Shown: piece after piece, positions 30,132-47,880 of the stretch
How positions within the stretch are numbered: the first letter of the stretch is position 1
Layout: each line of letters starts with the position of its first letter
Program-made: the position numbers and the translations under genes
The notes under the pieces: generated by a model
The model's input: only the letters and a program-made list of their open reading frames with translations
What the model was told of the DNA's origin: nothing
The model's database searches: none
Assembly (NCBI RefSeq): GCF_000372065.1
Contig: NZ_AQVB01000012.1
Location: 1 to 64,000 of the forward strand
Direction: 5' to 3'
DNA: 64,000 nt
Source of the DNA: Oligella urethralis DSM 7531
GTDB lineage: Bacteria; Pseudomonadota; Gammaproteobacteria; Burkholderiales; Burkholderiaceae_B

Positions 30132-30207
<76 letters not shown>

Positions 30208-30228
30208 AATAGGCATAAATTTTGTCCG

Positions 30229-30304
30229 GTCCCCATCGTCTAGAGGCCTAGGACATCGCCCTTTCACGGCGGCAACCGGGGTTCGAATCCCCGTGGGGAC
30301 GCCA
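30229..30304 (+). tRNA. tRNA-Glu (TTC), copy 1
   Basis: 76 bases, with CCA encoded. The anticodon loop CTTTCAC gives TTC. The sequence is identical to copy 2 at 30532. Its 3' end is the left arm of an 11-bp inverted repeat (GCCAAGCTTTT at 30301-30311, AAAAGCTTGGC at 30339-30349). Confidence 0.97.
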
Positions 30305-30375
30305 AGCTTTTAAGCTTTATTTTGACTGATTAGAGTTTAAAAGCTTGGCAATTGTTAAAGCATTTATGCCACTGC

Positions 30376-30452
30376 GGAGTGGTAGTTCAGTTGGTTAGAA
30401 TACCGGCCTGTCACGCCGGGGGTCGCGGGTTCGAGTCCCGTCCACTCCGCCA
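30376..30452 (+). tRNA. tRNA-Asp (GTC), copy 1
   Basis: 77 bases, with CCA encoded. The acceptor GGAGTGG pairs with CCACTCC, and the anticodon GTC is in CTGTCAC. The gene is identical to copy 2. Confidence 0.97.
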
Positions 30453-30531
30453 GAGTTTTCAGCGATTGATTTCGAGCAGTTTTTCTTGCTTAAATTTGAA
30501 TTCATCGCTATACTTAATTTTTTAAGTCCTT

Positions 30532-30607
30532 GTCCCCATCGTCTAGAGGCCTAGGACATCGCCCTTTCACGGCGGCAACCGGGGTTCGAATCCCCGTGGG
30601 GACGCCA
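30532..30607 (+). tRNA. tRNA-Glu (TTC), copy 2
   Basis: Identical to copy 1, 303 bases further on. The same inverted repeat is present around the CCA end (30604-30614 with 30637-30647). Confidence 0.97.
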
Positions 30608-30675
30608 AGCTTTTAGATTTTATTTGATTAGAGTTTAAAAGCTTGGCAATCGACTTAAAATTTGATCGCTTATGC

Positions 30676-30752
30676 GGAGTGGTAGTTCAGTTGGTTAGAA
30701 TACCGGCCTGTCACGCCGGGGGTCGCGGGTTCGAGTCCCGTCCACTCCGCCA
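30676..30752 (+). tRNA. tRNA-Asp (GTC), copy 2
   Basis: Identical to copy 1, 300 bases further on. Last tRNA of the operon, directly before the terminator. Confidence 0.97.
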
Positions 30753-30976: not shown

Positions 30977-32554
30977 ATGCATAAGAAATTATTAGTGGCA
31001 GCGCTATCCGCTGCCCTATTTGTTCCTTTAGCAGCGCAATCCAAAACATTGCGTTGGGCCAGTCAGGGAGATATTCTTACCCTCGACCCCCATGCTCAAA
31101 ATGAAGGCTTAAATATTGCCGCTAGTAGTTATGTCTATGAGACCCTAGTAGCTTATGACAAGGACTTCCAGATCACGCCAACCTTGGCCACTGAGTGGGA
31201 GACACCGTCAGATACACTTTGGCGTTTTAAGCTGCGTGAGGGCGTCAAGTTTCACGACGGTAGTGATTTTACAGCCGAGGATGCTGCCTTCTCCATCAAG
31301 CGAGCCATGGCACCCACCTCCAACTTTAAAGCCTATGTTAACGGCATCAAAGATGCCCGTGCCACTGACTCACATACCTTAGAAATTGAGTTGGACGGCC
31401 CTAACCCAGTGCTTTTACGTCAATTAACTAATGTCTTTATTATGAGTAAAGCGTGGGCTGAGGCCAACAACACCACCTCACCACAAGACTTCACTAAAAA
31501 GGAGGAAACCTACTCAGCGCGTAATGCCATGGGTACCGGTCCTTATAAACTTAGCTCGCGTGAAGTAGATATCCGCACCGAGTTTAGCGAAAATGAAAAC
31601 TGGTGGAACAAAGACAATAAAGTGGGCAACGTGACCCATATTGTTTATACACCAATTGCTCAAAATGCCACCCGTACAGCGGCGCTTCTATCCGGTGAAA
31701 TTGATTTTGTGCTCGATCCCCCAGCGCAGGATTTAGAGCGTATTAAGCGTCAAGCTAAAGTGGTCGAGGGCAATGAATATCGTACGATCTATATCGGCCT
31801 TGATCAAAAAAGTGATGAGTTAAAATACAGTACGCTTAAAGGCAAAAATCCCTTTGCCGATGTACGTGTGCGCGAAGCGCTTTATTTAGCGATTGATGCT
31901 GAAGCGATTAAAAAGTCGGTGATGCGTGGTTCTTCTGCCCCTACCGGCACCATGGTTGCACCACAGGTTAATGGTTGGAGCGAGGATTTAGCCAAGCGCC
32001 CTAAACCTGATTTAGAAAAAGCCAAGGCCTTAATCGCCGAGGCTGGTTATCAAGCAAATGAAATCAACTTTACCCTAGATTGTCCTAATAATCGCTACAT
32101 TAACGATGAGGCGATTTGTCAGGCGATTGTGGCGATGTGGGCTCGTATTGGCGTGAAGGCCAATTTGAACTCCATGCCACGTGCGACCTACTTCCCTAAA
32201 GTACAGTCTTACGATACCAGTGCTTATTTATTCGGTTGGGGTGTACCTACCTTTGATGCGCTGTATACCCTACAAAGCTTATTCCATAGCAAGGGTGAGG
32301 GTGCTGACGGTTCCTTTAACTTCGGCAATTATGAAAATGCCGAGGTGGATAAGTTGATTGACCTTATCAAGGTTGAAACCGATGAAGCCAAGCGTAATGA
32401 CGCCATTCATCAAGTGTTAAAAATTCATGCCGAGGAATTTGGTCATCTACCAATTCATGACCAAGTTATCCCTTGGGCCATGGCTAAAAATGTCGACGTT
32501 ATTCACCGCGCTGATAACCGTTTAACCGCTGAATGGGTAGTTATTAACGACTAA
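30977..32554 (+). CDS. Dipeptide-type ABC transporter substrate-binding protein
   Basis: A 525-residue periplasmic solute-binding protein of family 5 (DppA/OppA/nickel). A cleavable signal peptide covers about residues 1-22 (KKLLVAALSAALFVPLAAQSK); no lipobox is seen. Family marks are LDPHAQNEGLN, the cluster WRFKLREGVKFHDGSDFTAEDAAFS, and GTGPYKL. GGAGGAT precedes the ATG. It leads a five-gene transporter operon. The ligand cannot be deduced: peptides are most likely, but members also carry glutathione, opines or metal chelates. Confidence 0.9.
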   Translation: MHKKLLVAALSAALFVPLAAQSKTLRWASQGDILTLDPHAQNEGLNIAASSYVYETLVAYDKDFQITPTLATEWETPSDTLWRFKLREGVKFHDGSDFTAEDAAFSIKRAMAPTSNFKAYVNGIKDARATDSHTLEIELDGPNPVLLRQLTNVFIMSKAWAEANNTTSPQDFTKKEETYSARNAMGTGPYKLSSREVDIRTEFSENENWWNKDNKVGNVTHIVYTPIAQNATRTAALLSGEIDFVLDPPAQDLERIKRQAKVVEGNEYRTIYIGLDQKSDELKYSTLKGKNPFADVRVREALYLAIDAEAIKKSVMRGSSAPTGTMVAPQVNGWSEDLAKRPKPDLEKAKALIAEAGYQANEINFTLDCPNNRYINDEAICQAIVAMWARIGVKANLNSMPRATYFPKVQSYDTSAYLFGWGVPTFDALYTLQSLFHSKGEGADGSFNFGNYENAEVDKLIDLIKVETDEAKRNDAIHQVLKIHAEEFGHLPIHDQVIPWAMAKNVDVIHRADNRLTAEWVVIND

Positions 32555-32641
32555 TCCAGTCAACTCACTGTCAACCCATTGTGCAAGCCTTAAAGCCTTA
32601 GCTGCGTGCTAGCTTTAGGGCTTGCCCACACGCTACAACTT

Positions 32642-33625
32642 ATGCTTGTCTTTCTTATACGACGCCTCTTTCAGGCAGTGCTAGTAATGTTAGTGGTCAC
32701 ATTACTGGCCTTTGTGCTTTTCCGTTATGTAGGTGACCCGGTCACCATTATGCTAGGCCAAGACGCCACTGAGCTCGACCGCCAAGCCCTACGACAAAGT
32801 CTGGGATTAGATCAATCCTCCATCATACAATTTTGGAACTTTTTATCAAATGCCGCACAAGGTGAATTTGGCTTGTCCCTACGTCAAGGCCAAAGCGTTG
32901 CTGAATTAATTAAAGACCGCCTACCGGCAACGGTTGAACTCTCTGTGATTGCTGCGATCCTAGCCCTTTTTATCGGTTTACCTTTAGGCGTTTATACCGC
33001 ATTAAAACGTAATTCCTGGCTGTCTCAAGCCATTTTGTCTTTTTCCCTCTTAGGCATTTCCTTACCGACTTTTTTGATCGGTATTTTATTAATTTTGGTT
33101 TTTTCTGTGCACCTAGGTTGGCTACCAAGCTATGGTCGTGGCGAGGTATTAAAGCTAGGCTGGTGGAGCACCGGCTTATTTAATTGGGATGGTATTAAGC
33201 ATTTAATACTACCCTCAATTACCCTCTGCTTATTTCAGCTCACCTTAATTTTGCGTTTGGTGCGCTCTGAAATGCTCGAAGTATTGCGTAGCGACTATAT
33301 TAAATTTGCCCGTGCCAGAGGCCTAACACAACGAGCGATTCATTTCGGGCATGCCTTAAAAAATACCATGGTCCCCGTGATTACCATTACCGGCTTACAA
33401 CTAGGTGGGATCATTGCCTTTGCCATTGTCACAGAAACCGTGTTTCAATGGCCTGGTATGGGGCTACTCTTTATGCAAGCAGTGCAATTTGCCGATGTCC
33501 CGGTGATGGCTGCTTATTTATGTTTGATCGCATTGGTCTTTGTGGTGATCAATCTCATTGTTGATTTACTTTACTTTGTGGTTGATCCGCGCCTACGCGT
33601 TAACCTCAACCGCGCAGGAGCATAA
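32642..33625 (+). CDS. Dipeptide-type ABC transporter permease (DppB-like)
   Basis: A 327-residue inner-membrane permease with six membrane segments; the first is FLIRRLFQAVLVMLVVTLLAFVLF. The DppB-type coupling motif with EMLEVLRSDYIKFARARGL is at about residues 210-230, before the last segments. Start ATG 32642 is chosen because the family begins MxxFLIRR; an earlier in-frame start adds 12 residues. It ends two bases before the second permease. Confidence 0.92.
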   Translation: MLVFLIRRLFQAVLVMLVVTLLAFVLFRYVGDPVTIMLGQDATELDRQALRQSLGLDQSSIIQFWNFLSNAAQGEFGLSLRQGQSVAELIKDRLPATVELSVIAAILALFIGLPLGVYTALKRNSWLSQAILSFSLLGISLPTFLIGILLILVFSVHLGWLPSYGRGEVLKLGWWSTGLFNWDGIKHLILPSITLCLFQLTLILRLVRSEMLEVLRSDYIKFARARGLTQRAIHFGHALKNTMVPVITITGLQLGGIIAFAIVTETVFQWPGMGLLFMQAVQFADVPVMAAYLCLIALVFVVINLIVDLLYFVVDPRLRVNLNRAGA

Positions 33626-33627
33626 TC

Positions 33628-34539
33628 ATGAGTGCCCTAAAACGATTTTGGGATAGCGACTTAGCTTGGTCTTGGCGTCATACCCCTACCGCTATTTTCG
33701 GTGCGCTTGTCACTTTCGTGTTGTTTGTAGGTGCCTTTGGTGCCCCGTGGTTAGCGCCACACAACCCCTTTGACTTAGCTGCCATTGATTTATTTGATGC
33801 CCTCCTACCACCGGCTTGGGAAGCCGACGGCAAATTGACGTATCTACTGGGCACTGACAGTCAAGGACGTGATTTATTTTCTTCTCTACTGTACGGCACC
33901 CGTATTTCCCTCTTGATTGGCTTTGCCTCGGTTATCCTGGCGATGGTTATCGGGATTTTGCTGGGGCTAATTGCCGGTTATGCCGGTGGTCGCGTGGAGT
34001 CCTTTATTATGCGCGTGGCCGATGTACAGCTATCATTTCCGGCCATTTTAATTGCCCTCTTAATTGATGGTGTAGCTCGCAGCGTGGTGCCACAGCATAT
34101 GCTAGAGACGATTTCCTTTCCGGTATTGATCGGAGCCATTGCCCTTGCTGGTTGGCCGCAATATGCACGTACCGTACGTGGTTCCACCATTGTGGAAAAA
34201 AACAAAGAGTATGTGCAGGCAGCTAAGGTCATTGGCGTATCCCGACCGCGCATTATGTTGACCCATGTCCTACCGAATGTACTCGGACCGGTCTTAGTCT
34301 TAGCCACAGTGCACTTAGCGACAGCCATTATTACTGAAGCAACCCTATCTTTCTTAGGGGTTGGTGTGCCACCAACTTCGCCCTCCTTGGGTACTTTAAT
34401 TCGTATCGGTAATGACTTTCTTTTCTCCGGCGAATGGTGGATCACGATTTTCCCAGGGCTGATGCTGGTGCTTTTAGTTTTATCAGTTAACTTATTAGGT
34501 GATTGGTTGCGTGATGCGCTCAATCCAAAACTAAACTAG
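33628..34539 (+). CDS. Dipeptide-type ABC transporter permease (DppC-like)
   Basis: A 303-residue permease of the DppC type: a short cytoplasmic start (FWDSDLAWSWRHTPTAIFG), a first membrane segment, the GTDSQGRDLFSSLLYGTRISL region typical of DppC, and the coupling loop IVEKNKEYVQAAKVIGVSRPRI. AGGAG lies before the ATG. It forms the heterodimeric channel with the preceding permease. Confidence 0.92.
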   Translation: MSALKRFWDSDLAWSWRHTPTAIFGALVTFVLFVGAFGAPWLAPHNPFDLAAIDLFDALLPPAWEADGKLTYLLGTDSQGRDLFSSLLYGTRISLLIGFASVILAMVIGILLGLIAGYAGGRVESFIMRVADVQLSFPAILIALLIDGVARSVVPQHMLETISFPVLIGAIALAGWPQYARTVRGSTIVEKNKEYVQAAKVIGVSRPRIMLTHVLPNVLGPVLVLATVHLATAIITEATLSFLGVGVPPTSPSLGTLIRIGNDFLFSGEWWITIFPGLMLVLLVLSVNLLGDWLRDALNPKLN

Positions 34540-34550
34540 GTCTAACCACA

Positions 34551-35522
34551 ATGAGCGCATTATTAGAAGTAAAAAACTTAGAAGTAGAATTTCCTACGCG
34601 ACGCGGCACCTTACGTGCTTTGGACGATGTGTCATTTACCATTAATCGCGGCGAGGTCTTGGGCGTGGTAGGTGAATCGGGTGCAGGTAAATCCCTCACT
34701 GGCGCCTCCATCATCGGTTTATTAGATCCGCCAGGGCGTGTCAGTGGTGGCGAAATCTATCTTGATGGCCGTCGCATTGATCATCTGCCCCTGAAGGAGA
34801 TGCGCAAGATCCGCGGTCGCGAGATCGGTGCCATTTTCCAAGATCCGCTAACCTCACTCAACCCTTTGTATACTGTGGGTCAGCAGCTGACGCAAACCAT
34901 TCAAACGCATTTGGCCTTGACTCATAAGCAAGCCCAAGAGCGTGCCATTGAACTTTTGGAGTCCACCGGCATTCCAGCGGCGCGTGAACGTATTAATCAC
35001 TACCCCCATCAATTCTCTGGCGGTATGCGACAACGCGTGGTCATTGCTTTAGCCTTGGCCGCTGATCCAAAATTAATTATTGCCGATGAACCTACCACGG
35101 CTTTAGATGTGTCCATTCAGGCGCAAATTATTGATTTACTCAAAAAGCTCTGTAAGGAAAATGGCACAGCGGTGATGCTTATCACCCATGATATGGGTGT
35201 GATTGCTGAAACTGCAGACCGTGTTGCGGTGATGTATGCGGGCCGTATTATCGAGATCGGTCCGGTGCAGGATGTGATCCAACATGCTTTACACCCATAC
35301 ACCCATGGCTTAATGCGCTCCATTCCTACGTTGGATCCGACGATTCATGAATTGGAGCAAATACCCGGTAGCATGCCGCGCTTAAACGCCATCCCGCGTG
35401 GCTGCGCATTTAATCCACGTTGTCGCGACGTCTTTGATAAGTGTTTAGCAGAGCGTCCCGATTTAATACCACTGCAAGGACGTGAAGTCGCCTGTTGGTT
35501 ACATGAGGAGGCCAAGGCATGA
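34551..35522 (+). CDS. Dipeptide-type ABC transporter ATPase (DppD-like)
   Basis: A 323-residue ATP-binding subunit. Walker A is GESGAGKSL (about 42-50), the signature is FSGGMRQRV, and Walker B is LIIADEPTTALD. The C-terminal oligopeptide extension contains cysteines in GCAFNPRCRDVFDKC and ACWL, typical of OppD/DppD. It overlaps the next ATPase by four bases (ATGA). Confidence 0.94.
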   Translation: MSALLEVKNLEVEFPTRRGTLRALDDVSFTINRGEVLGVVGESGAGKSLTGASIIGLLDPPGRVSGGEIYLDGRRIDHLPLKEMRKIRGREIGAIFQDPLTSLNPLYTVGQQLTQTIQTHLALTHKQAQERAIELLESTGIPAARERINHYPHQFSGGMRQRVVIALALAADPKLIIADEPTTALDVSIQAQIIDLLKKLCKENGTAVMLITHDMGVIAETADRVAVMYAGRIIEIGPVQDVIQHALHPYTHGLMRSIPTLDPTIHELEQIPGSMPRLNAIPRGCAFNPRCRDVFDKCLAERPDLIPLQGREVACWLHEEAKA

Positions 35523-36511
35523 GTACAGCGCCATTAGTTGAAGTTAAACATATTGCCCGTTATTTTGATGTCTCGCCCCCTTTGCTTGAGCGTCTAATTT
35601 ACCGTCGGCCTAAGGTCTTTTTACGGGCCGTGGATGATGTTAGCTTTAGCCTCAATCGAGGCGAAACCCTCGCCTTAGTGGGGGAGTCAGGCTGTGGTAA
35701 ATCCACGGTAGCCCGTCTACTGACTGGACTCTATGGTCTAAGCAAAGGCAGCATTAAATTTGATGGTCAAGAGCTGTCCACCATGAATGAGCAGCAAATC
35801 AAAACAATGCGTCGCCGGCTACAAATGATTTTCCAAGATCCTTATGCCAGTCTTAATCCGCGCTGGCGTGTCGGCCGCATTATTGCCGAGCCTTTACGCA
35901 CCCATAGTCATTTATCTAAGGCAGAGCAAGAACAGCGAGCCGCAGAGCTGTTGGAGCAGGTTGGGCTAAGTGCCTCTGATATTAATCGCTATCCACATCA
36001 GTTCTCTGGCGGTCAACGACAGCGTATTTCCATTGCTCGTGCCTTAGCCTTAAGACCGGAATTTATTGTCTGTGATGAGCCCACCTCCGCCTTGGATGTG
36101 TCCGTGCAAGCGCAGGTATTGAATCTGATGAAGAAGCTACAACAGGACTTGGGGCTGAGTTATTTATTTATCTCACATAATCTAGCCGTAATTCACCATA
36201 TGGCTGACCGTGTGGGCGTGATGTACTTGGGCAGAATTGTAGAAATTGCGCCGCGCGATGATTTATTTGCCAACCCACGCCATCCCTACACCAAAATGCT
36301 CTTAGGCGCTATTCCTGATATGACAGGTACGGGTAAACGACGGGTACAGGTCGCCGGTGAGGTACCTAATCCCTTAAACCCGCCCACAGGCTGTACCTTT
36401 CATCCGCGCTGCCCCTTAGCTAATGCGCGTTGCAAAGAGGAAGTTCCACGTTTAAGCCAGTTTCAAGGAATAGAAATTGCCTGTCATGCGGTTGAGGAAG
36501 GCAGAGAGTAG
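35519..36511 (+). CDS. Dipeptide-type ABC transporter ATPase (DppF-like)
   Basis: A 330-residue second ATPase. Walker A is GESGCGKST, the signature is FSGGQRQRI, Walker B is [12 protein letters not shown], and the C-terminal cysteine extension is [15 protein letters not shown]. It overlaps the preceding gene at ATGA. The LysR gene begins 11 bases after its stop and may be co-transcribed. Confidence 0.94.
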
Positions 36512-36522
36512 CAAAAAATCTT

Positions 36523-37470
36523 ATGCGATATTCAGTAACAGCACTTGCTAAGCGTTTGAGGATTATCCATCTACAAATTCTGACGGAAGTCTATCAACAA
36601 GGCTCATTACTCGGCGCATCACGAGTTTTACACATGAGCCAACCGGCGATTAGTAAAGTTATTCGTGATTTAGAGGATTACTTTGAGCAGCCTCTATTTA
36701 TCCGTACTCCGCAAGGTGTCACCCCTACAGACTTTACGCTGTTACTGCTTTCGCACGCCCAAGCATTACAAGGCAACTTAAAGCACCTGACGGATGACTT
36801 AAACACATGGCAATCCGGCCTTTCCGGACGCGTGACGATAGGCAATATGCTGACTGCCTCAGCCAGCTTTGTGCCGCGTGCAGTCATGCGTTTAAAGCAG
36901 TTGGCACCCCGGGTTGATGTGGAAATCAGGGTTGGCACAAATGACAGCCTGTTTCCGGAATTACTCGCCGGAAACTTAGACTTGATGCTGGGCATTTTAC
37001 CGACCACACCTAACCCTCAACTGTCAAAAACAATCCTATATCAGGAGACGCTTAGTATTGTCGCCGGTAGACAAAACCCGCTGGCCGCCGATATTAATCA
37101 ACAGAACTGGATGCAGGATGAATCCATTATCTGGGTGATTCCACCACTTAATACAGCAGTAGGCCAAAGAGTAAGAGAGTTTTTTAACAGCATCGACAGA
37201 GAACTGCCCAAACAAAAGATAGAATCCCTGTCTATCCTGACGAATCTAACTATCTTACTTGAGTCGTCCGCCATTTTAGTGGCGCCCTCTTCCGTCGTTG
37301 AGCGTTTTATTCGTTTAGGTTTAATGGTCGAGCTCTACCAAGAAAATTTCTCTTTAGGCAATATCGGCTATTCACTACCTAAAGACAGACCCATCACACC
37401 CACCACGCAACGCTTAATCGAGCTGCTGCAAACCTCCATTGACAGTAAAAACGATGAGCTGATGAGTTAA
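36523..37470 (+). CDS. LysR-type transcriptional regulator
   Basis: A 315-residue regulator with an N-terminal winged helix-turn-helix (LQILTEVYQQGSLLGASRVLHMSQPAISKVIRDLEDYF, about residues 19-56) and a C-terminal periplasmic-binding-protein-like effector domain. The sequence is of the GbpR/PcaQ type, often controlling sugar or aromatic acid catabolism. It sits between the ABC transporter and the 3-hydroxyanthranilate operon on the same strand. A dyad with LysR-site geometry lies 160 bases after its stop codon, so it probably controls nbaE onward, the ABC operon, or both. Confidence 0.9.
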   Translation: MRYSVTALAKRLRIIHLQILTEVYQQGSLLGASRVLHMSQPAISKVIRDLEDYFEQPLFIRTPQGVTPTDFTLLLLSHAQALQGNLKHLTDDLNTWQSGLSGRVTIGNMLTASASFVPRAVMRLKQLAPRVDVEIRVGTNDSLFPELLAGNLDLMLGILPTTPNPQLSKTILYQETLSIVAGRQNPLAADINQQNWMQDESIIWVIPPLNTAVGQRVREFFNSIDRELPKQKIESLSILTNLTILLESSAILVAPSSVVERFIRLGLMVELYQENFSLGNIGYSLPKDRPITPTTQRLIELLQTSIDSKNDELMS

Positions 37471-37539
37471 TTTGCAAATTTCAAAGTCGGCACATCACCC
37501 ATCTCTACTCAACAGCCCCTATAGCAAAACCTTTTAAGT

Positions 37540-37549
37540 AAAGCGCTTT
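37540..37549. repeat. AAAGCGCTTT palindrome, copy 1
   Basis: A perfect 10-base palindrome in the gap between the LysR gene and nbaE. The same word recurs at 37663-37672 and 43217-43226. Its shape resembles LacI-family operators, but no LacI-type gene is in the window. Confidence 0.45.
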
Positions 37550-37628
37550 TTAGGCATCTCCAAAAAAACGCAAAAATTAGCGTTATCCCCTATAAAACAA
37601 TCACTTAATCTATCAACAGGTATTTCAT

Positions 37629-37653
37629 AATGGTTATCACCGATATAACCATT
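37629..37653. promoter_or_regulatory. Probable LysR operator before nbaE
   Basis: A perfect inverted repeat, AATGGTTAT/ATAACCATT (37629-37637, 37645-37653), is separated by 7 bases. Its centre contains T-N11-A (TATCACCGATATA), the LysR-type box. A TATAAT at 37704-37709 could be the -10; the dyad would then be centred near -75, where LysR proteins bind their recognition site. The link to the adjacent LysR gene is inference. Confidence 0.6.
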
Positions 37654-37662
37654 TGATATACA

Positions 37663-37672
37663 AAAGCGCTTT
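37663..37672. repeat. AAAGCGCTTT palindrome, copy 2
   Basis: Second copy of the palindrome, 10 bases after the LysR dyad and upstream of the presumed nbaE promoter -10. A long T run follows directly. Confidence 0.45.
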
Positions 37673-37756
37673 TTTTTGATTATAGCTTTGATAGCAATAT
37701 TCATATAATCAATTTTAATACCTTAATTTTTCCAAGCCTCGCAAAGGAGGATTATC

Positions 37757-39244
37757 TTGAATCGCTTAACTTTACCTGAATCTTTAAAAATTACTAAAAA
37801 CTATAGTAATGGTAGCTTCATCACGACAGATAAACGCTTCGATAATATCAGTCCGGTGGACGGTGAAAAATTATCTGAAGTTTGTGAAGCCGATAGAGCA
37901 TTGGTTGACGCCACTGTAAAGGCAGCTAAAGAGGCTTTAAATGGTCCTTGGGGCAAGACCACCGTTGAAGAACGCGCTGATTATTTATTCAAAGTAGCAA
38001 ATATCATAGAAAGACGTTACGACGAATTTATTGCTGCCGAGGTTTTAGATACCGGACGTCCTGTTCACCAGGCAAAAGCTTTGGATGTGTATCGTGGTAT
38101 GCATAATCTACGCACTTTTGCGGAAATATTTAAACACGAATACACAACGACAGAGTGCTACGAGTCCAATCTGCCGGATGGTTCACGCTTACTTAATATC
38201 ACCAGACGTAATCCTTTAGGTGTTGTTGTCAGTATCTCCCCATGGAATCTGCCCTTACTGTCCGCCACATGGAAAGCTGCGCCGATTCTTATGGCAGGCA
38301 ACACGGTCATTTGTAAACCGTCCGAGGAAAGCCCTTCCTCTGCCACCTTATTGGCTGAGTGTTTTGATGAGGCCGGCGTGCCACCCGGTGTATTTAATGT
38401 TTTACATGGTTTTGGTAAAGACTCTGCCGGTGCTTTCCTCACAGAAAACCCCGCGATTGATGCCATCACCTTTACCGGCGAATCGGGTACCGGTTCAACC
38501 ATTATGAGAACGGCGGCAGCGGGTGTTAAACCGGTGTCCTTTGAACTAGGTGGCAAAAACGCAGCGATTGTTTTTGAAGATGCCGATTTTGATGCGGCTG
38601 TAGACGGTATTATCCGCTCCAGTTTTACCAACTCCGGACAGGTTTGTCTATGTTCCGAAAGAGTGTTTGTGCAGCGTTCAATCTTCGATAAATTTGTGCA
38701 GGCAATCACTGAAAAAACCGAGCAACTCAAAGTCGGTTGGCCTGAAGACGATCAAGTTTATATGGGCCCGCTGGTTTCTAAAGGTCACCGTGAAAAAGTA
38801 CTGTCCTATATGAAACTTGCTGTTGAAGAGGGAGCAACTGTACATACCGGCGGCATTGTACCTGAGTTCGGCGATGGCCGAGACCGTGGCGCTTATGTTA
38901 GACCAACCATCTGGACCGGCTTAAGTGATGATGCACGCTGCATGCAAGAGGAAATTTTCGGACCGGTCACCCATCTTTCACCTTTTGACACCGAAGAGGA
39001 AGTCATTGCTCGTGCCAATAATACGAATTATGGCTTAGCCGGTGTAATTTGGACCACCAATCTTTCCCGTGCACATCGTGTCGCTCCGCAAATCAACGCC
39101 GGTATTGTCTGGGTCAACCACTGGTTTGCCCGCGACTTAAGAACGCCTTTCGGAGGCAATAAACTCTCCGGAGTCGGTCGTGAAGGCGGTCGCCATTCGA
39201 TGGAGTTCTACAGCAACCTAAGCAATATCAGTATCCGCATTTAG
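37757..39244 (+). CDS. nbaE: 2-aminomuconate 6-semialdehyde dehydrogenase
   Basis: Oxidises 2-aminomuconate 6-semialdehyde to 2-aminomuconate with NAD. A 495-residue aldehyde dehydrogenase. Catalytic C297 (GQVCLC), E263 (FELGGK) and N164 (SPWNLP) are present. R119 sits where the family's carboxylate-binding arginine is expected, which favours this enzyme over general aldehyde dehydrogenases. The start codon is TTG at 37757, fixed by a full AAGGAGG seven bases upstream. It heads an eight-gene operon whose order matches the nba cluster of Pseudomonas fluorescens KU-7 as I recall it, without nbaX. Confidence 0.88.
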   Translation: MNRLTLPESLKITKNYSNGSFITTDKRFDNISPVDGEKLSEVCEADRALVDATVKAAKEALNGPWGKTTVEERADYLFKVANIIERRYDEFIAAEVLDTGRPVHQAKALDVYRGMHNLRTFAEIFKHEYTTTECYESNLPDGSRLLNITRRNPLGVVVSISPWNLPLLSATWKAAPILMAGNTVICKPSEESPSSATLLAECFDEAGVPPGVFNVLHGFGKDSAGAFLTENPAIDAITFTGESGTGSTIMRTAAAGVKPVSFELGGKNAAIVFEDADFDAAVDGIIRSSFTNSGQVCLCSERVFVQRSIFDKFVQAITEKTEQLKVGWPEDDQVYMGPLVSKGHREKVLSYMKLAVEEGATVHTGGIVPEFGDGRDRGAYVRPTIWTGLSDDARCMQEEIFGPVTHLSPFDTEEEVIARANNTNYGLAGVIWTTNLSRAHRVAPQINAGIVWVNHWFARDLRTPFGGNKLSGVGREGGRHSMEFYSNLSNISIRI

Positions 39245-39258
39245 AAATAAGGTTAATT

Positions 39259-40050
39259 ATGACTACAGTATTAGAACTTGCTGATCAGTTAGTAACAGCA
39301 GAAAAAAGCAAACAAGCCATTTCTCCAATCGCTGAGCAAATCAAAGCCATCGCCGGCAATGATGATGCCTTAAAGATTGCTTATGAGATTCAACAGCTGA
39401 ATCTACAACGTCGCCTTGACGCAGGTGCTCGCATCGTCGGTAAAAAGATTGGTTTAACCTCTTTAGCCGTGCAGCAGCAGCTCGGTGTAGACCAACCGGA
39501 TTATGGTTCTATTTTCGCTGAAAGCGCCTATGGTACACACGAAGTCGTGGACGGTTCTCAATGGATTCAACCTAAGGCCGAAGCAGAGATCGCCTTTGTA
39601 CTTTCCAAAGACTTAGACAAAGAGCATCACACCTTTGCCGACCTTATTTCATCGATTGACTATGCTTTAGCTGCTATTGAAATCGTTGACAGTCGAATTG
39701 CCGACTGGAAAATTTCCCTACTGGATACCGTAGCCGACAATGCCTCCTACGCTGCTTTCGTTTTAGGTGGTCGACCTGTACCACTACGTAAGTTAGATCT
39801 AAGTCGCTGCGGCATGTATATGGAACGTCAAGGCTTGGAAGTCTCTGTAGGCGCCGGTGTGAATTGTCTCGGCAACCCCCTAAATGCCGCCGTATGGTTA
39901 GCCAACCGTATGGTTGCTATGGGCACACCGCTCAAAGCCGGTGATATTTTACTTAGCGGTGCTTTAGGTCCTATGGTCAATCTGGGTCGTCAAGAATCTT
40001 TAACAGCCCACATCGAAGGCTTAGGCTCAGTCACATTAATTATTGAATAG
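39259..40050 (+). CDS. nbaH: 2-oxopent-4-enoate hydratase
   Basis: Adds water to 2-oxopent-4-enoate to give 4-hydroxy-2-oxovalerate. A 263-residue member of the MhpD-type hydratase/decarboxylase family. Segments [35 protein letters not shown] (metal ligands), [16 protein letters not shown] and [10 protein letters not shown] agree closely with MhpD. This separates it from the paralogous decarboxylase at 42041, which has the [17 protein letters not shown] version. AAGG lies before the ATG. Confidence 0.85.
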
Positions 40051-40058
40051 AGAATATT

Positions 40059-40997
40059 ATGTCTAATCAAAAAATTGCCGTTGCCATTATCGGCTCAGGA
40101 AACATCGGTTCCGATCTGATGTACAAAATCCTTCGTCAATCCAAACATCAAGAAGTCGTTGCGATGGTCGGTATTGATCCTGCTTCTGAAGGCTTAAGTC
40201 GTGCCAAGTCACGTGGTATTGAAGCCATTGATAGCGGTATCGACGGCTTGGTGAATTCTGCGCAGTTTAAAAATATCAAAATCGCTTACGACGCGACCAG
40301 TGCCGGCGCTCATCACAAACACAATGAGATCCTACAAGCACATGGTGTGCGTGTTGTGGATCTGACTCCCGCCGCTATCGGCCCTTATCTGATTCCTCCG
40401 GTAAATAGTGATGCGCATATCGGCGCTCCCAATATCAATATGGTGACTTGCGGCGGTCAAGCAACCATTCCGATGGTACATGCGGTATCACGTGTTACAC
40501 CGGTTAACTATGCCGAGATTGTGGCTTCTATTTCCAGTAAATCCGCCGGTCCGGGTACTCGTGCCAATATTGATGAATTTACCGAAACCACTTCCAAAGC
40601 AATTGTAGAGGTAGGCGGTGCTGAAAACGGTAAGGCCATTATTATTTTAAATCCGGCCGAACCGCCTTTAGTAATGCGCGACACAGTCTACTGTTGTGTT
40701 GCAGCAGATGCCGATGAAGAAGCGATCACGGCCTCTATTCTGGAAATGGAAAAATCAGTGCAGCAATACGTACCGGGTTACTCACTTAAACAAGCACCTC
40801 AATTCGACAATATTAAATTGAATCGTGCGGACGTTATTCCGGGTAACACTGCCACTGAAATTAAAAAAGTATCAATCTTCCTGGAAGTGATCGGCGCCGG
40901 ATTTTACTTACCTGAATACGCCGGTAACTTAGACATTATGACCAGCGCAGCGATGAGTGTCGGTGACCGCATCGCCAGTCATCTATTAGCAAAGTAA
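40059..40997 (+). CDS. nbaJ: Acetaldehyde dehydrogenase (acylating)
   Basis: Converts acetaldehyde, CoA and NAD to acetyl-CoA, channelled from the aldolase partner encoded next. 312 residues; Rossmann start [14 protein letters not shown], catalytic cysteine in [12 protein letters not shown] (about residue 130), and [21 protein letters not shown]. Length and motifs match the MhpF/DmpF/BphJ group. The pair nbaJ-nbaI is 12 bases apart, as usual for this bifunctional complex. Confidence 0.93.
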
Positions 40998-41009
40998 TCG
41001 GAGAAAAAC

Positions 41010-42041
41010 ATGAGTTTTGATAAACAGAAAAAAATCTATATCTCTGATGTAACCCTCAGAGACGGCATGCATGCAATTCGTCACCAGTACAGTATTGAGC
41101 AGGCCAAAGCCATTGCTCAAGCCTTAGATATCGCGGGCGTTGACAGCATTGAAGTAGCTCACGGTGACGGCTTAAAGGGTTCAAGCTTTAACTACGGCTT
41201 TGGTGCCCACACCGATCTTGAATGGATTGAAGCGGTGGCCGGCGTGGTAAAAAATGCCAAAATCGCTACCCTGCTTTTACCCGGTATCGGTACGATTCAT
41301 GACTTAAAAGCGGCCTTTGATGCCGGTGCCACCGTGGTGCGCGTAGCAACTCACTCGACCGAAGCCGATATTTCCAAACAGCATATTGAATATGCCCGTC
41401 ACTTAGGTATGGATACCGTTGGCTTTCTTATGATGAGCCATATGAATACACCTGAAAAACTGGCCCTGGAAGCTAAGAAAATGGAAGACTATGGTGCCGA
41501 AACCGTTTATGTGGTGGATTCCGGCGGTGCCATGAATATGTACGATATTGCCGATCGTGTTAAAGCCTTTAGAGATGTTTTAAAACCGGAAACTCAGATT
41601 GGTATCCATGCACATCATAACTTAGGCTTAGGCGTTGCCAACAGCATTGTCGCTGTTGAGCATGGTTGTGACCGTGTTGACGCCAGTTTAACCGGTATGG
41701 GTGCCGGTGCCGGCAATGCACCGTTAGAGGTCTTTATCGCTGCCGTCGACCGTATGGGATTAAACCACGGTTGTGATGTTAGAGCCTTAATTGACGCAGC
41801 TGAAGATTTAGTACGTCCGCTACAGGAACGTCCGGTCAGAGTGGATCGTGAAACCTTGGCACTGGGTTATGCCGGTGTTTATTCCAGCTTTTTACGTCAC
41901 AGTGAAGCAGCGGCAGAACGTTATGGTTTATCTGCTTTCGATATCTTGGTTGAATTGGGTCGTCGCGGCATGGTCGGCGGTCAGGAAGACATGATTGTAG
42001 ATGTTTGCTTGGATATGTTGAAGAAAAAGGAAGAAGCCTAA
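41010..42041 (+). CDS. nbaI: 4-hydroxy-2-oxovalerate aldolase
   Basis: Cleaves 4-hydroxy-2-oxovalerate to pyruvate and acetaldehyde. A 343-residue metal-dependent aldolase of the HMGL-like family (DmpG/MhpE). The N-terminal [14 protein letters not shown] carries the catalytic arginine-aspartate pair. The metal histidines are in [15 protein letters not shown]. The C-terminal communication domain with [14 protein letters not shown] contacts the dehydrogenase. Its TAA stop overlaps the next ATG (TAATG). Confidence 0.94.
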
Positions 42042-42802
42042 TGGATCACCAAACTATTGCTAAAAAATTAGCTGATGCTGCCGCTCAGGCTCAAGCGGTT
42101 GAACAGTTTCCGGCGAATGCGTTTAATTTAAAAGAAGCCTACGACATTCAACGCTTGGTCATTGCTGAGCGTGTTAAAAACGGACACCCTATCTGCGGCA
42201 TCAAAATGGGCTTTACCAGCCGCGCCAAAATGGATCAAATGGGTGTTCATGATTTGATTTGGGGTCTTTTAACCACAGATATGTTAATTGAAGACGGCAG
42301 TGAAATTGATCTGGATAAATTCGTTCACCCTCGGGTTGAGCCCGAAGTATGTTTTTTAATTAAAAAAGACATTGATCGCCATTTAACTGCCTTGGAACTG
42401 GTTGATTATATTGAGGCTGTTGCACCGGCCCTTGAAATCATCGACTCCAGATTTCAGAACTTTAAATTTGATTTAAATAATGTGGTTGCCGACAACTGCT
42501 CATCGTCCAGCTTTGTGGTCGGCAACTGGTCACGTGACTTCAATGCAATTAATAACGCCTATGTCGGCTTAAGCATTAACGGTCGTGTCAGACAAGGTGG
42601 CTCCACAGCAGGTATTTTAGGCAATCCGTTACGCTCAGTCGTTCAATGCTCACGCTTATTGGCGGAGCGTGAAGAAGTGTTGCCGGCCGGTAGCTTTTTA
42701 ATGGCGGGCGCTGCGACACCGGCTGAAGCGCTAAGTAAGGGTGACTTTGTTGAAATCGATATTAACGGACTCGGCAAAGCCTGTTTTCATGTTGGAGCTT
42801 AA
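42041..42802 (+). CDS. nbaG: 4-oxalocrotonate decarboxylase
   Basis: Decarboxylates 4-oxalocrotonate to 2-oxopent-4-enoate. 253 residues from the ATG overlapping the aldolase stop; the longer frame upstream lies inside the aldolase gene. [44 protein letters not shown] and ILGNPLRSV agree with the DmpH/XylI/AmnE decarboxylases. It forms a complex with the hydratase in related pathways. The swap of names between the two paralogues is the main risk; motifs favour this reading. Confidence 0.83.
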
Positions 42803-43215
42803 TGATGAGTAACGGTTTAATTAAAGAGTTTGCTAAGCCTCGTGGCAGTTTCCCTCATTACAAACGTGCCGGTGATTTTATTTTCGTTTCCGGTACCAGC
42901 TCACGTCGTCCCGACAATAGCTTCGAAGGCGTGGAAGTTGATGAGATGGGGGTAACTAATCTCAATATCCGTGCCCAAACCCGTGCTGTGATTAATAACA
43001 TTCAGAACATTTTAAAAAAAGCCGGTGCCGATTTAAGCGATCTGACTGAAATCAGCGTGTTTTTAGTAAATATGAATGATTTTGGGGGCTTCAATGAGGT
43101 CTGGGCCGAGTATTTCGACTATGAAGGACCAACCCGGACAACCGTTGCAGTACACCAACTGCCACACCCTCACCTCTTAATCGAAATGAAAGCCATTGCT
43201 TATAAACCTGTATAA
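42802..43215 (+). CDS. nbaF: 2-aminomuconate deaminase (RidA-like)
   Basis: Hydrolyses 2-aminomuconate to 4-oxalocrotonate and ammonia. A 137-residue member of the YjgF/RidA fold with the family end [23 protein letters not shown]. The N-terminal part ([24 protein letters not shown]) fits the AmnD/NbaF branch and not the general imine deaminase RidA. The start overlaps the nbaG stop by one base; the second ATG (42805) is equally possible. Pathway context strengthens the call. Confidence 0.85.
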
Positions 43216-43827
<612 letters not shown>

Positions 43828-43846
43828 AACTTATTTACACCACGAC

Positions 43847-44848
43847 ATGAAAATAGATATTCACTCTCATTTTTTTCCTCTAATCAGTCAGGAAACTGCA
43901 GAATCCATTGATGCAGAACGTACGGCTTGGTTAAGAGTAGACGACAACGATCCGAGCAAAGGCATGATTATGCTTAACGGCAAGGAGTTCAGACCGGTAT
44001 ATAACGCACTCTGGGATCCCGACGCTCGTATCAAAGAGTTAGATCAGGAAGGTATTGATACTCAGATTGTATGTATCACACCGGTGCTTTTCGGCTACAG
44101 CTGGGACGAGCATCGTGCCCATGATTGGTGCCAAAAAATGAACGAGGAAGCGGTTAAGTTTTGCCAACAGCATCCGTCACGTCTCAAAGCATTTTCTCAA
44201 GTGCCTTTACAGAATCTGCAAATGGCTTGTGAAGAGGCAAGCCGTGCAAAACAGCTGGGTTGTGTCGGTGTACAAATCGGTAACCACGTTGGTAATAAAG
44301 ATTTAGATCATCCGGATTTAGTTGATTTCCTAATCCATTGTGCTGAAGAAGATATACCTGTCTTTATTCACCCATGGGACATGATGGGCGGTCCTGACCG
44401 TATGCAGCAATGGATGTTGCCTTGGCTGGTTGCAATGCCTGCGGAAACTCAATTAAGCATGCTGAGTTTAATCCTTTCGGGTGCCTTAGAGCGAATTCCA
44501 GAAAAAGCCAAAATTTGTTTTGCCCATGGTGGCGGTAGCTTTGCCTACACCCTTGGTCGCGTCGACAATGCTTGGAAACACCGTGATATCGTTCGCAAAG
44601 ACTGCCCTCGCCCACCCTCAGAGTATGCCAGTCGTCTTTATACCGACGCTGCGGTATTTAACCAAGATGCCTTAGCCTTACTTTGTAAAGTCATGGGTGA
44701 AGACAACATTATGATGGGCTCGGATTATCCATTCCCTCTCGGAGAGCAACCGATTGGCAGCTTAATTGAGCAAAGTCCCTATCTTAATGAACAACAAAAA
44801 CAGAAAATGCTTCATAAAAACGCACTAAGCTTTTTCAACTTAAACTAA
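43847..44848 (+). CDS. nbaD: 2-amino-3-carboxymuconate-6-semialdehyde decarboxylase
   Basis: Removes CO2 from the ring-opened product, diverting it from spontaneous closure to quinolinate. A 333-residue amidohydrolase-fold ACMSD. Zinc ligands H6, H8 (IDIHSHFF), H175 (FIHPWDMMG) and D293 (GSDYPFPLG) are all present, with catalytic H227 (CFAHGGGSF). The ribosome site is weak; the gene follows nbaC after 19 bases. Complete active-site residues argue for function. Confidence 0.94.
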
Positions 44849-44869
44849 TTTCCCTTGGAGGAAGACATC

Positions 44870-45853
44870 ATGAAAATTAAAAAACTAATCACTGCATTAG
44901 CCATTACTATCGGCTCATTAAGCCTTGCGCAAGCGGCTCAAGCTAAAAACTTCCGCTTAGGTTTAATCACCCCTGCCAGCCATATTTGGGCTCAATCGGC
45001 CGAACGCTTTGGTGAGGATTTATCCAAAGCTTCAAATGGTGAGCATAGTGTCAGTATTTTCCCGGCCGGTCAGCTCGGCAATGAAGCCTCCATGCTGCAG
45101 CAACTACAAACAGGTGCTTTAGATATGGCCTTTATTACTGCCGCTGAGCTATCCAACCGACATCAGGAAATGGGCATTTTATTTGCTCCGTTCTTAGTGC
45201 AAAATGTCGATCAAGTCCCTGAGTTGCTCGCTTCCGAACCGGCTCAAAAACTGCTTGATAATTTAGTACAAAAAACCGGTGTGGTTGGTATCGGCTACGG
45301 TACAGGTGGTTTAAGACAGATTTCCAGCGTTAATCCGGTCGAGAACATTAATGATTTACGTGGTAAAAAATTACGCATTACCCCTCAAGCACCGTTACAG
45401 GACTTTTATCGAGCAATCGGTGCAGCGCCGGTTTCTCTACCTTTATCTGCTGTTTATGATGCCATGAGCAATAAACAGGCTGACGGTACCGATATGGATT
45501 TGGAAATTATTGTCGGACTTAAACTTTATGATATCGCTGAGACCACCGTACTTTCCAACCATATGATTTGGCCGGTTGTAGGGGTAGTCTCGGCACGCGT
45601 TTGGAACACACTCAGTGATGAAGACAAGAAAAACATTCAAGAGCTAATGAGCAAACGTCTTCAAGAAACCGGCGCTCTTTATAGTGCAAAAGAACGTGAA
45701 TGGACTGATGCACTTAAGGCCACCGGCAAACCGGTGAAAGAGGTAGGCCCTGAGTTCTTTGAAAAAGTGACTGCTCAGTGGGAGGAAAAATGGTCAAAAC
45801 AAAGCCCATTGTTAAAAGACCTACGAGCTGTTTCTGAGCAAATCAAACAATAA
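44870..45853 (+). CDS. dctP: TRAP transporter substrate-binding protein
   Basis: A 327-residue periplasmic binding protein of the DctP family. A signal peptide covers about residues 1-25 (KKLITALAITIGSLSLAQAAQAK). Typical segments are RLGLITPASHIWAQSAERFGEDLSKASNG, FPAGQLGNEASMLQQLQTGALDMAF and GVVSARVWNTLSDEDKK. ATG 44870 follows GGAGG; an upstream in-frame start adds five residues. It begins 21 bases after nbaD, so it is probably in the same transcript. The ligand may be 3-hydroxyanthranilate or a precursor; that is inference from position. Confidence 0.9.
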   Translation: MKIKKLITALAITIGSLSLAQAAQAKNFRLGLITPASHIWAQSAERFGEDLSKASNGEHSVSIFPAGQLGNEASMLQQLQTGALDMAFITAAELSNRHQEMGILFAPFLVQNVDQVPELLASEPAQKLLDNLVQKTGVVGIGYGTGGLRQISSVNPVENINDLRGKKLRITPQAPLQDFYRAIGAAPVSLPLSAVYDAMSNKQADGTDMDLEIIVGLKLYDIAETTVLSNHMIWPVVGVVSARVWNTLSDEDKKNIQELMSKRLQETGALYSAKEREWTDALKATGKPVKEVGPEFFEKVTAQWEEKWSKQSPLLKDLRAVSEQIKQ

Positions 45854-45875
45854 GATACACCTGAGGAGAGCATCT

Positions 45876-46442
45876 ATGAAATTCCTTAAATGCCTCTCCT
45901 CAATCTTAGCTAAAGCTGAGTTGAGGATAGCCGGAATTCTAGTTGCCATCGTCACTGCCCTCATTGTGATCAATGTATTCACTCGCGCGGCAAACATGGC
46001 AATTTTTTGGATTGACGAAGCCGCTATTTTTTTCATGGTGTGGGCAGTCTTTTTAGGTACTGCCGTACTTATGCAAAAGCGCCAGGCAATAGCTGTCACC
46101 ATCGTCAAGGATTTCACCTCTGACAAGGTTAAGCGATACTTTGAGGTCGCTTATGACTGGAGTATTTTAATTTTCTCATTGTTTTTACTGTATTTTTGTT
46201 GGATTTGGTATAGACCCGATGTACTGATTGAGACAGGCTTTAACTTGCAAGAATTCAGTATGCAAACAATGAATTTTATTTATCAAGACACTACAAACAC
46301 CTTAGGAATTCCTAAATACCTAGTGTGGTTAATTATCCCCTACTTTGGTTTTTCTTGTTTTATACATTCCTTAGCCAATATTTTAACCACACCTTGCGGC
46401 AATTACGCAAAACGTGAAGCTCAAAAGGAGCCTAGATCATGA
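45876..46442 (+). CDS. dctQ: TRAP transporter small membrane subunit
   Basis: A 188-residue inner-membrane protein with four hydrophobic segments (about residues 20-40, 47-65, 90-110 and 145-165). FWIDEAAIFFMVWAVFLGTAVLMQKRQAI has the E-A and WxxFLGxA pattern of DctQ subunits. GAGGAG precedes the ATG. It overlaps dctM at ATGA. Confidence 0.88.
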   Translation: MKFLKCLSSILAKAELRIAGILVAIVTALIVINVFTRAANMAIFWIDEAAIFFMVWAVFLGTAVLMQKRQAIAVTIVKDFTSDKVKRYFEVAYDWSILIFSLFLLYFCWIWYRPDVLIETGFNLQEFSMQTMNFIYQDTTNTLGIPKYLVWLIIPYFGFSCFIHSLANILTTPCGNYAKREAQKEPRS

Positions 46443-47698
46443 TCTTTTTAATTTTTGCTGTACTAATGGCATTAGCCGTACCAATCGGCTTAGTACTGGC
46501 TTTTACAGCTATTTACTATATCTGGAGCTCCGATAACGCAGTACTGTTTGAGTCCTTCGGCTCGCAGCTGTTTAACTCCATAGATAACTACGGTTTATTG
46601 GCAATACCGCTCTTTATTTTTGTCGGTGAACTAATGAATGAGGGTGGTCTCACCAAGCGCTTAATCCAATTTGCCCGGGTATTTTTTGGCGGTGTGCGTG
46701 GAGGACTGGCATATATTAATCTCTTAGCTAATATGATGATGGCTGCAATTTTAGGCTCTGCCGTTGCTCAAATTGCCATCATGGCTCAAGCCATTGTCCC
46801 GGAAATGGAGAAAGACGGTTATAACAAAACCTTTGCTACTTCTTTGACAGCGGTGAGCGGAATTTTAGGAGCGATTATCCCACCTTCAATGATGTTTGTG
46901 ATCTTCGGGGTACTGGCCCAAGTCTCAATCGGTGATATGTTTATTTCCGGTATTATTCCGGGTACTTTATTGGGTACCGGGTTATTACTCGCTATTTTCT
47001 TCTTGGGCTTAAAAAATCCATACCCTAAGGGACAATGGTTAAATAAAGAAGAAGCGCTTAAAGCGATTGTTCGCGCCTTACCGGCCTTAGCTATTCCGGT
47101 GGTTATTATTTTAGGCATTTTATTGGGCTTTACGACACCGACTGAATCTGCCGGTATTGCCTGCCTGATTGCTCTATTGGTAGGGATTTTTGTTTATAAA
47201 GAACTGCGCCTATCTTCGCTGACCAAGCTATTGGAACGAACTGTTATCAGCACGGCAATGGTAGTTTTTTTAGTGGCTGCGGCCGGAGTTTTCGGGTGGA
47301 CAATTACTTTTGAACAGATCCCTGACAAGGTTGCACAATGGATTACCGGCACAACCACTAATCCAATTGTATTTTTATTCCTAGTCACCCTTTTACTCAT
47401 GGCTTTAGGGACGGTTTTAGACGGTATCGCCGCATTAATTCTGGTCGTACCTATTTTGCTGCCGATTGCTACCCAAAACTACGGTATCGACACCTATCAT
47501 TTCGGTGTTATTGTTTGTATCGTTTTGGTGCTTGGACTCTTAACGCCCCCTGTAGGAACGGGTCTATTTGTAGCATCCTCACTGACCGGCATAAAACCGG
47601 GTAAGCTTTTCGGGGCCATGATGCCGTTTTTAATCACCGTTTCAATTATTGTGTGTTTATTAGTCATTTTCCCGGTACTAACAGTCGGTTTGCTGTAA
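46439..47698 (+). CDS. dctM: TRAP transporter large membrane subunit
   Basis: A 419-residue sodium-coupled channel subunit with about 12 hydrophobic segments. Family marks: LLAIPLFIFVGELMNEGGLTKRLI, GGLAYINLLANMMMAAILGSAVAQ, IPPSMMFVIFGV and TPPVGTGLFV near the end. With dctP and dctQ it makes a complete tripartite transporter. A terminator at 47730 closes the unit. Confidence 0.93.
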   Translation: MIFLIFAVLMALAVPIGLVLAFTAIYYIWSSDNAVLFESFGSQLFNSIDNYGLLAIPLFIFVGELMNEGGLTKRLIQFARVFFGGVRGGLAYINLLANMMMAAILGSAVAQIAIMAQAIVPEMEKDGYNKTFATSLTAVSGILGAIIPPSMMFVIFGVLAQVSIGDMFISGIIPGTLLGTGLLLAIFFLGLKNPYPKGQWLNKEEALKAIVRALPALAIPVVIILGILLGFTTPTESAGIACLIALLVGIFVYKELRLSSLTKLLERTVISTAMVVFLVAAAGVFGWTITFEQIPDKVAQWITGTTTNPIVFLFLVTLLLMALGTVLDGIAALILVVPILLPIATQNYGIDTYHFGVIVCIVLVLGLLTPPVGTGLFVASSLTGIKPGKLFGAMMPFLITVSIIVCLLVIFPVLTVGLL

Positions 47699-47726: not shown

Positions 47727-47765
47727 AAACGTATGAGCCGCTCTACAAGAAGCTCATACGTTTTT
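47727..47765 (+). terminator. Terminator after dctM
   Basis: A stem of 12 bp including CGTATGAGC/GCTCATACG (47730-47738, 47752-47760) is followed by TTTTT. It ends the nba-TRAP transcript. Confidence 0.9.
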
Positions 47766-47880
47766 ATTTTAAAGCTATTATTTCATTTACTGAAACAAAC
47801 TATTCGATAAATACCCCTCCTCAGCATCAACAATATTTGCTATAACTAAGCTATCGCATAATATTTTTCAAGGAACAATC

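Follow-up and report, generated by a model that had tools for sequence, protein, structure and literature searches.

A putative LysR-regulated operon of Oligella urethralis that probably scavenges exogenous 3-hydroxyanthranilate through a TRAP transporter

A stretch of 64,000 nucleotides from the Oligella urethralis DSM 7531 genome (contig NZ_AQVB01000012.1, positions 1 to 64,000; hereafter the window) carries twelve intact open reading frames (ORFs) in the order R-E-H-J-I-G-F-C-D-dctP-dctQ-dctM, all on the plus strand between positions 36523 and 47698. They encode a LysR-type regulator (R), eight enzymes predicted to degrade 3-hydroxyanthranilate (3-HAA), and a tripartite ATP-independent periplasmic (TRAP) transporter. 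We consider it likely that they form one LysR-regulated operon scavenging exogenous 3-HAA, for which ligand, transport, and induction are predicted. The gene content, the position of dctPQM 21 bases after nbaD (gene D), and a terminator after the operon had all been proposed in a first-pass annotation of the sequence, and each was borne out by ORF coordinates, family models, or folding. From E to dctM, genes overlap or are spaced by at most 33 bases (19 bases between C and D), while the R-E gap is 286 bases. Since E and H are only 14 bases apart, there is no room for a gene between them, and nbaX is absent here. The TRAP layout is complete, with the binding protein and the small and large membrane subunits within the operon. 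The terminator consists of a 12-pair stem (47727-47738/47752-47763) followed by a T run, and none of 200 shuffled sequences folded as stably (z -4.9), although a simple terminator scan allowing loops of 3 to 8 did not list this hairpin.

The family assignments support the earlier reading of a pathway of eight enzymes acting on 3-HAA. The predicted 3-hydroxyanthranilate 3,4-dioxygenase (3HAO), C, exceeds both curated cut-offs for this enzyme (TIGR03037 and NF009763), and among solved structures bacterial 3HAO (6vi5/1yfu) match it best. A residue-by-residue check found that C retains H53, E59, and H97, which we take to be iron ligands, R49, R101, and E112, presumably substrate ligands, and the four cysteines. 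The proposed 2-amino-3-carboxymuconate-6-semialdehyde (ACMS) decarboxylase (ACMSD), D, gave no match in NCBIfam and belongs to the Pfam family Amidohydro_2; its best match in the Protein Data Bank (PDB) is ACMSD (2hbv, E 7e-142), aligned over nearly the whole length. Among solved proteins, E most resembles 2-aminomuconate semialdehyde dehydrogenases (AMSDH; E 1e-214), ahead of the other aldehyde dehydrogenases listed and again nearly over its whole length, yet the NCBIfam equivalog that it passes is 2-hydroxymuconic semialdehyde dehydrogenase and not the aminomuconate enzyme. F is assigned by the Rid family (PF01042) alone, and its deaminase function is presumed. The first-pass claim of intact active sites thus holds for C, the protein covered by the residue check; for D and E it extends to near full-length alignments with solved enzymes.

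The reaction steps of the nba pathway give the following scheme. DctP would bind periplasmic 3-HAA, which DctQM would carry inward. C would then open the ring to yield ACMS, and D would decarboxylate this compound ahead of its cyclisation to quinolinate. E would oxidise the semialdehyde to 2-aminomuconate and F would remove ammonia, after which G would decarboxylate and H hydrate the product. Finally, I would split it into pyruvate and acetaldehyde, the latter being converted to acetyl-CoA by J.

The O. urethralis genome encodes ten DctP proteins, and we examined the one in the operon for hints of its ligand. Its R169, presumably the conserved arginine that holds the ligand carboxylate, is invariant in 49 of 49 alignment rows. 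Its score of 158.7 bits falls short of the 175.05-bit cut-off of TIGR00787, a DctP family model not specific to one ligand. The closest solved DctP is that of entries 4paf/4pai/4pbh (E 2.7e-100), with the next solved relative at 2.4e-32; 9dsy, a solved protein named as a C4-dicarboxylate-binding DctP, is a far weaker match (E 2.4e-19) than 4paf. The DctP of Ruegeria pomeroyi SZCCDBG043 (L133), a member of the same subfamily coded directly behind a 3HAO gene, differs hardly at all from the 4paf chain; unlike the window, the stretch seen there contains no ACMSD gene. We take the ligands of 4paf/4pai/4pbh to be benzoate and hydroxybenzoates, and the locus tag of 4paf to be SPO1773, for which a lookup gave nothing. 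The database records examined name members of this subfamily only as TRAP (substrate-)binding proteins. Based on sequence and gene context, the family is predicted to carry ortho-amino and hydroxy benzoates; that the TRAP accepts such compounds as a class is very probable, and 3-HAA is its likely main ligand here.

This assignment is also supported by the recurrent linkage of dctP with the 3-HAA dioxygenase gene, nbaC (gene C), in other bacteria. Among 151 genomes of the family to which O. urethralis belongs (which also contains Pelistega), four others (G085, G019, G055, and G124) encode a DctP at 56 to 72% identity, and in all four dctP lies directly behind C and D. Among 38 DctP loci viewed with flanks of about 1.5 kb, six contained nbaC, two of these being the window itself; the remaining 32, three of them at 44 to 48% identity, had no nbaC. 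Conversely, no dctP relative was detected in the fetched stretches of twenty nbaC loci from genomes without the linkage. The neighbours typed in three unlinked nbaC loci were ABC-type binding proteins (L084 and L101) and a nitroreductase-family gene with a Rieske-type gene (L083).

A wider collection of named genomes, from which 80 loci out of 349 confirmed DctP relatives were analyzed, extended this pattern. In 54 of the 80, mostly from alphaproteobacteria, nbaC is directly upstream of dctP on the same strand, its match starting 543 to 808 nt earlier. Four more (L103-L106), all from betaproteobacteria, show the C-D-P order: Pelistega suis, Vandammella animalimorsus, Neopusillimonas maritima, and an Alcaligenaceae metagenome-assembled genome, three of which overlap G085, G055, and G124, leaving Vandammella as the sole addition. 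In two further loci, nbaC is present but at another position within the locus. Compared with C of the window, 35 of the 54 linked dioxygenases are at least 55% identical and 19 are 43 to 51% identical, and all 54 keep the checked 3HAO residues (presumed iron ligands, substrate ligands, and four cysteines). A quick tree of NbaC separates 56 alpha- and gammaproteobacterial from 26 betaproteobacterial sequences (20 of these without the TRAP) by a branch with support of 100. Given this split, and a beta side both with and without the TRAP, the pairing does not represent one recent copy; it may have one old origin followed by losses. In a quick DctP tree, the C-D-linked beta proteins form one group with support of 89 (the program's mark being 95) and a long-branch warning at L104. 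The plasmid search also revealed a Vibrio nigripulchritudo plasmid, NZ_AP027047.1, predicted to be conjugative, with all eight enzymes, a LysR gene, and this TRAP, the parts being 31 to 62% identical. It differs from the window in its plasmid location and in its order, R-D-P-Q-M-E-H-J-I-G with C and F divergent, while D-P-Q-M is kept. This recurrence in many other species strengthens the earlier suggestion that the substrate is imported.

Most linked loci outside the betaproteobacteria have another gene setting. The 54 adjacent nbaC-dctP pairs were inspected over up to 10 kb a side at an identity of at least 40% (35% for LysR). The surrounding families were LysR (43 pairs), the dihydrodipicolinate synthase (DHDPS) family (41), the aspartate dehydrogenase family (36), aldehyde dehydrogenase (27), and the large subunit of a xanthine-dehydrogenase-type enzyme (15). 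Ten loci show none of these, apparently including R. pomeroyi L133 according to its gene map. On pGal_C110 of Phaeobacter gallaeciensis, genes for 3HAO, aldehyde dehydrogenase, kynureninase (kynU), a tripartite tricarboxylate transporter (TTT), this TRAP, LysR, aspartate dehydrogenase, and DHDPS lie together. ACMSD was found at none of the 54 alpha/gamma pairs within these flanks, the rest of the genomes not having been searched, and it may lie elsewhere in them. Judging from gene content, these loci possibly encode an undescribed lower pathway for 3-HAA, in which the amino group of the ring-opened product would be removed by an aspartate dehydrogenase-like enzyme, the 2-oxo acid would then be split by a DHDPS-type lyase, and the resulting aldehyde would be oxidised by a dehydrogenase. 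Nothing relevant that joins 3-hydroxyanthranilate, aspartate dehydrogenase, and Roseobacter was found in the parts of the literature that were available to the search. We give an even chance to a broader view, namely that this widespread DctPQM subfamily scavenges 3-HAA and related compounds and is combined with two or more lower pathways: one is the ACMSD route, and another is an undescribed ACMSD-free route of alphaproteobacteria (many of them marine by name) that would use an aspartate dehydrogenase-like enzyme, a lyase of the DHDPS family, and a dehydrogenase of the aldehyde or molybdenum type.

To determine where the substrate could originate, we searched the O. urethralis genome (2.31 Mb, 46 contigs, 99.99% complete) for genes that would produce 3-HAA. 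Neither kynU nor a tryptophan dioxygenase gene was found at E 0.001. The only full-length proteins of FAD_binding_3, the Pfam family to which we take kynurenine monooxygenase (KMO) to belong, are two ubiquinone hydroxylases, and hence no KMO was seen. The search for kynU and KMO proposed in the first-pass annotation was thus run with neither found, in agreement with its view that kynurenine genes are missing and the substrate may be imported; nbaA and nbaB were not searched for. As the genome search turned up no enzyme that would produce 3-HAA from tryptophan, the compound is probably supplied from outside the cell. An nbaC match occurs in 39 genomes of the family; we compared 38 of them, separating the 5 in which it is linked to the TRAP from the 33 others. 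None of the 5 has kynU over the cut-off versus 21 of the 33 (one-sided Fisher test, 0.012), and the same holds for tryptophan dioxygenase (0 of 5 versus 23 of 33; 0.006), both tests being uncorrected for shared descent with the five linked genomes coming from three genera. One of these, G124, has a weak kynU match beneath the cut-off. The O. urethralis genome also contains a separate ben-cat cluster (L190) with an aromatic-acid-type carrier of the major facilitator superfamily just below its cut-off. It encodes two ring-hydroxylating oxygenases, a BenA-like one in this cluster and one of unclear type, neither of which is over the anthranilate dioxygenase cut-off. Among NAD synthesis genes, nadA and nadC are both present in this genome and were found in none of six others tested alongside. 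A second, disrupted nadC-like gene, which contains an in-frame stop, lies at G000:C14:62565-63249, the intact nadC being on C26.

Several observations weigh against 3-HAA scavenging as the role of this TRAP. Eight of the 33 other nbaC genomes (G006, G016, G056, G067, G083, G105, G110, and G111) likewise have neither kynU over the cut-off nor tryptophan dioxygenase although their nbaC is not linked to this TRAP, so that absence of these genes fits uptake but does not by itself prove it. nbaC was not seen in 20 of the 80 DctP loci, some of which have little upstream DNA (L142, L178, and L182). The alpha/gamma nbaC label needs 7 changes on the DctP tree, which implies that the linkage was gained or lost repeatedly. 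The Phaeobacter cluster holds both kynU and the TTT carrier. Finally, in Marinobacterium stanieri (L158:1-13892), a DctP of 49% identity is separated by about 2 kb from the genes for anthranilate 1,2-dioxygenase (antAB, over cut-offs), with AndR-like regulators (under cut-off) on both sides and E, H, J, I, and G genes nearby; L117 has ORFs of the same clusters. The DctP family is therefore not strictly devoted to 3-HAA, and the gene context of L158 suggests anthranilate uptake.

The same locus lends some weight to another explanation, in which the O. urethralis TRAP imports anthranilate or another benzoate that an enzyme coded elsewhere converts to 3-HAA, as does a salicylyl-CoA 5-hydroxylase-like flavoprotein gene right after dctM in G019 (L070:4348-5481), where E, H, J, I, and G were not found in the fetched stretch. 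We regard this as unlikely, since the two ubiquinone hydroxylases are the only full-length FAD_binding_3 proteins of the O. urethralis genome and neither of its ring-hydroxylating oxygenases exceeds an anthranilate dioxygenase cut-off, although two-component flavin hydroxylases, like nbaA and nbaB, were not searched for. Less probable still is a carrier of C4-dicarboxylates or other organic acids placed in the operon by chance. DctPQM is a generic TRAP layout and the 21-base distance suggests co-transcription only, but the context disfavours C4-dicarboxylates, with 3-HAA dioxygenase linkage recurring in alpha-, beta-, and gammaproteobacteria against none in the 32 other DctP loci. Operation mainly for quinolinate and NAD supply from 3-HAA, rather than for carbon and nitrogen, appears highly improbable: nadC is present and ACMS, the product of C, presumably cyclises to quinolinate, but nadA is present too, so that no gap is apparent (nadB was not searched for), and D with the full lower pathway would drain ACMS into central metabolites. 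Scavenging of 3-HAA itself thus remains our preferred explanation.

The history of the operon was examined in the seven sibling species of the genus, all of which lack D. Six of them keep the upstream ABC operon and the downstream glutathione S-transferase (GST) gene close together, and G022 shows neither orthologue. The distance between the abcD match and the GST gene, 11.4 kb in the window, is 198 bases in G057, 173 in G125, 152 in G106, 140 in G142, 961 in G151, and 1895 in G084. The gap contains an intact H in G151 (L196) and intact H and G in G084 (L197), with nothing there in the four other siblings. The sibling proteins are 81 to 83% (H) and 88% (G) identical to those of the window, compared with at most 66% (H) and 75% (G) in the other operons compared, and the retained genes have a dN/dS of 0.04 to 0.09 with dS saturated. 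No significant trace of the other ten operon genes was detected in the six sibling loci (best E 0.11). Most simply, these data are explained by an operon ancestral at this locus that was lost piecemeal, H and G being retained for some other use. It is less likely that the window lineage built up the operon from H and G genes that were already there, because the order E-H-J-I-G-F-C-D also occurs in L083 (and in L072, to the contig end). The distances alone had suggested insertion of an 11-kb island in O. urethralis, which is countered by the two siblings that retain H, alone or with G, at this position.

The features of the operon are listed in Table 1. Relatives of R at 42 to 43% identity sit directly upstream of nba genes in L070 and L071 (mutual near-copies) and in L083. 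In the R-E gap, a perfect inverted repeat is a plausible candidate LysR site on sequence grounds; its core has its only exact match in the window here, with one further match at 3 mismatches. The repeats listed for the equivalent gaps in L083 and L106 include no operator-like repeat of this kind. Upstream, an oligopeptide-type ABC operon (30977-36511) ends 11 bases ahead of R, so that read-through into R is possible. Five clustered tRNA genes, among which Glu(TTC) and Asp(GTC) occur repeatedly, occupy positions 30132-30752.

Table 1. Predicted features of the 3-HAA operon in the window
Feature	Coordinates	Strand	Basis
R, LysR-type regulator	36523..37470	+	PF00126 + PF03466; best NCBIfam TF_pcaQ, 149.6 bits vs cut-off 303.8
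Candidate operator, perfect 9-base inverted repeat AATGGTTAT-N7-ATAACCATT	37629..37653		Contains T-N11-A LysR-box pattern
E, 2-aminomuconate-6-semialdehyde dehydrogenase	37757..39244	+	Family model and PDB match; TTG start after AGGAGG
H, 2-oxopent-4-enoate hydratase	39259..40050	+	Right NCBIfam family, under equivalog cut-offs
J, acetylating acetaldehyde dehydrogenase	40059..40997	+	NCBIfam, over cut-off
I, 4-hydroxy-2-oxovalerate aldolase	41010..42041	+	NCBIfam, over cut-off
G, 2-oxo-3-hexenedioate (4-oxalocrotonate) decarboxylase	42041..42802	+	NCBIfam below cut-off; Pfam family
F, Rid-family protein, presumed 2-aminomuconate deaminase	42802..43215	+	PF01042; role from gene order and presumed nba counterparts
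C, 3-hydroxyanthranilate 3,4-dioxygenase (3HAO, NbaC)	43249..43827	+	TIGR03037 + NF009763 over cut-off; PDB 6vi5/1yfu
D, 2-amino-3-carboxymuconate-6-semialdehyde decarboxylase (ACMSD)	43847..44848	+	PDB 2hbv, E 7e-142
DctP, TRAP substrate-binding protein, proposed 3-HAA receptor	44870..45853	+	PF03480; closest solved 4paf/4pai/4pbh; gene context
DctQ, small membrane subunit	45876..46442	+	PF04290
DctM, large membrane subunit	46439..47698	+	PF06808
Intrinsic terminator	47727..47770	+	Stem and T run; shuffle test

Among known TRAP systems for aromatic acids, the one for 4-chlorobenzoate is presumably FcbT. The first-pass annotation considered a TRAP carrier for an aminophenol-type acid unusual, which did not hold up: the pairing recurs, and published reports describe a 4-chlorobenzoate system, TarPQM for lignin aromatics, and a roseobacter 4-hydroxybenzoate TRAP (PMC5812351, PMC12442348). 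By description rather than sequence comparison, these are likewise DctPQM-type uptake systems beside aromatic catabolic genes, but with other substrates. Because such carriers are already known, our proposal is a new substrate assignment and not a new kind of carrier. The nba cluster of Pseudomonas fluorescens KU-7 presumably has the same gene names in the order E H J I G F C D. It and the onb cluster of Cupriavidus sp. ST-14 serve 2-nitrobenzoate with additional genes A and B, whose roles we assume, and differ from the window operon, which lacks nbaX. At the level of gene names, the ST-14 cluster shares the eight enzyme genes E H J I G F C D, and in its report "TRAP" has 0 occurrences, in contrast to the dctPQM of the window (PMC5817917). 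No paper joining 3-hydroxyanthranilate with TRAP transport was found in the literature searched, which mostly excluded subscription papers and is hence weak evidence of novelty; the accessible part of PMC10041152 gave no result for this TRAP.

The 3-HAA pathway and TRAP uptake of aromatic acids are known already. New, within the literature searched, are the repeated association between one DctP subfamily and 3-HAA dioxygenase, the two settings in which genes for the lower pathway occur, and the loss of the operon in steps across one genus. Through this pairing, a TRAP subfamily with existing crystal structures gains a substrate that is directly testable, and a catabolic operon is seen dismantled species by species within one genus. 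If the proposal is true, bacteria of animals and the sea (habitats taken from species names) would import a redox-active tryptophan product from their surroundings.

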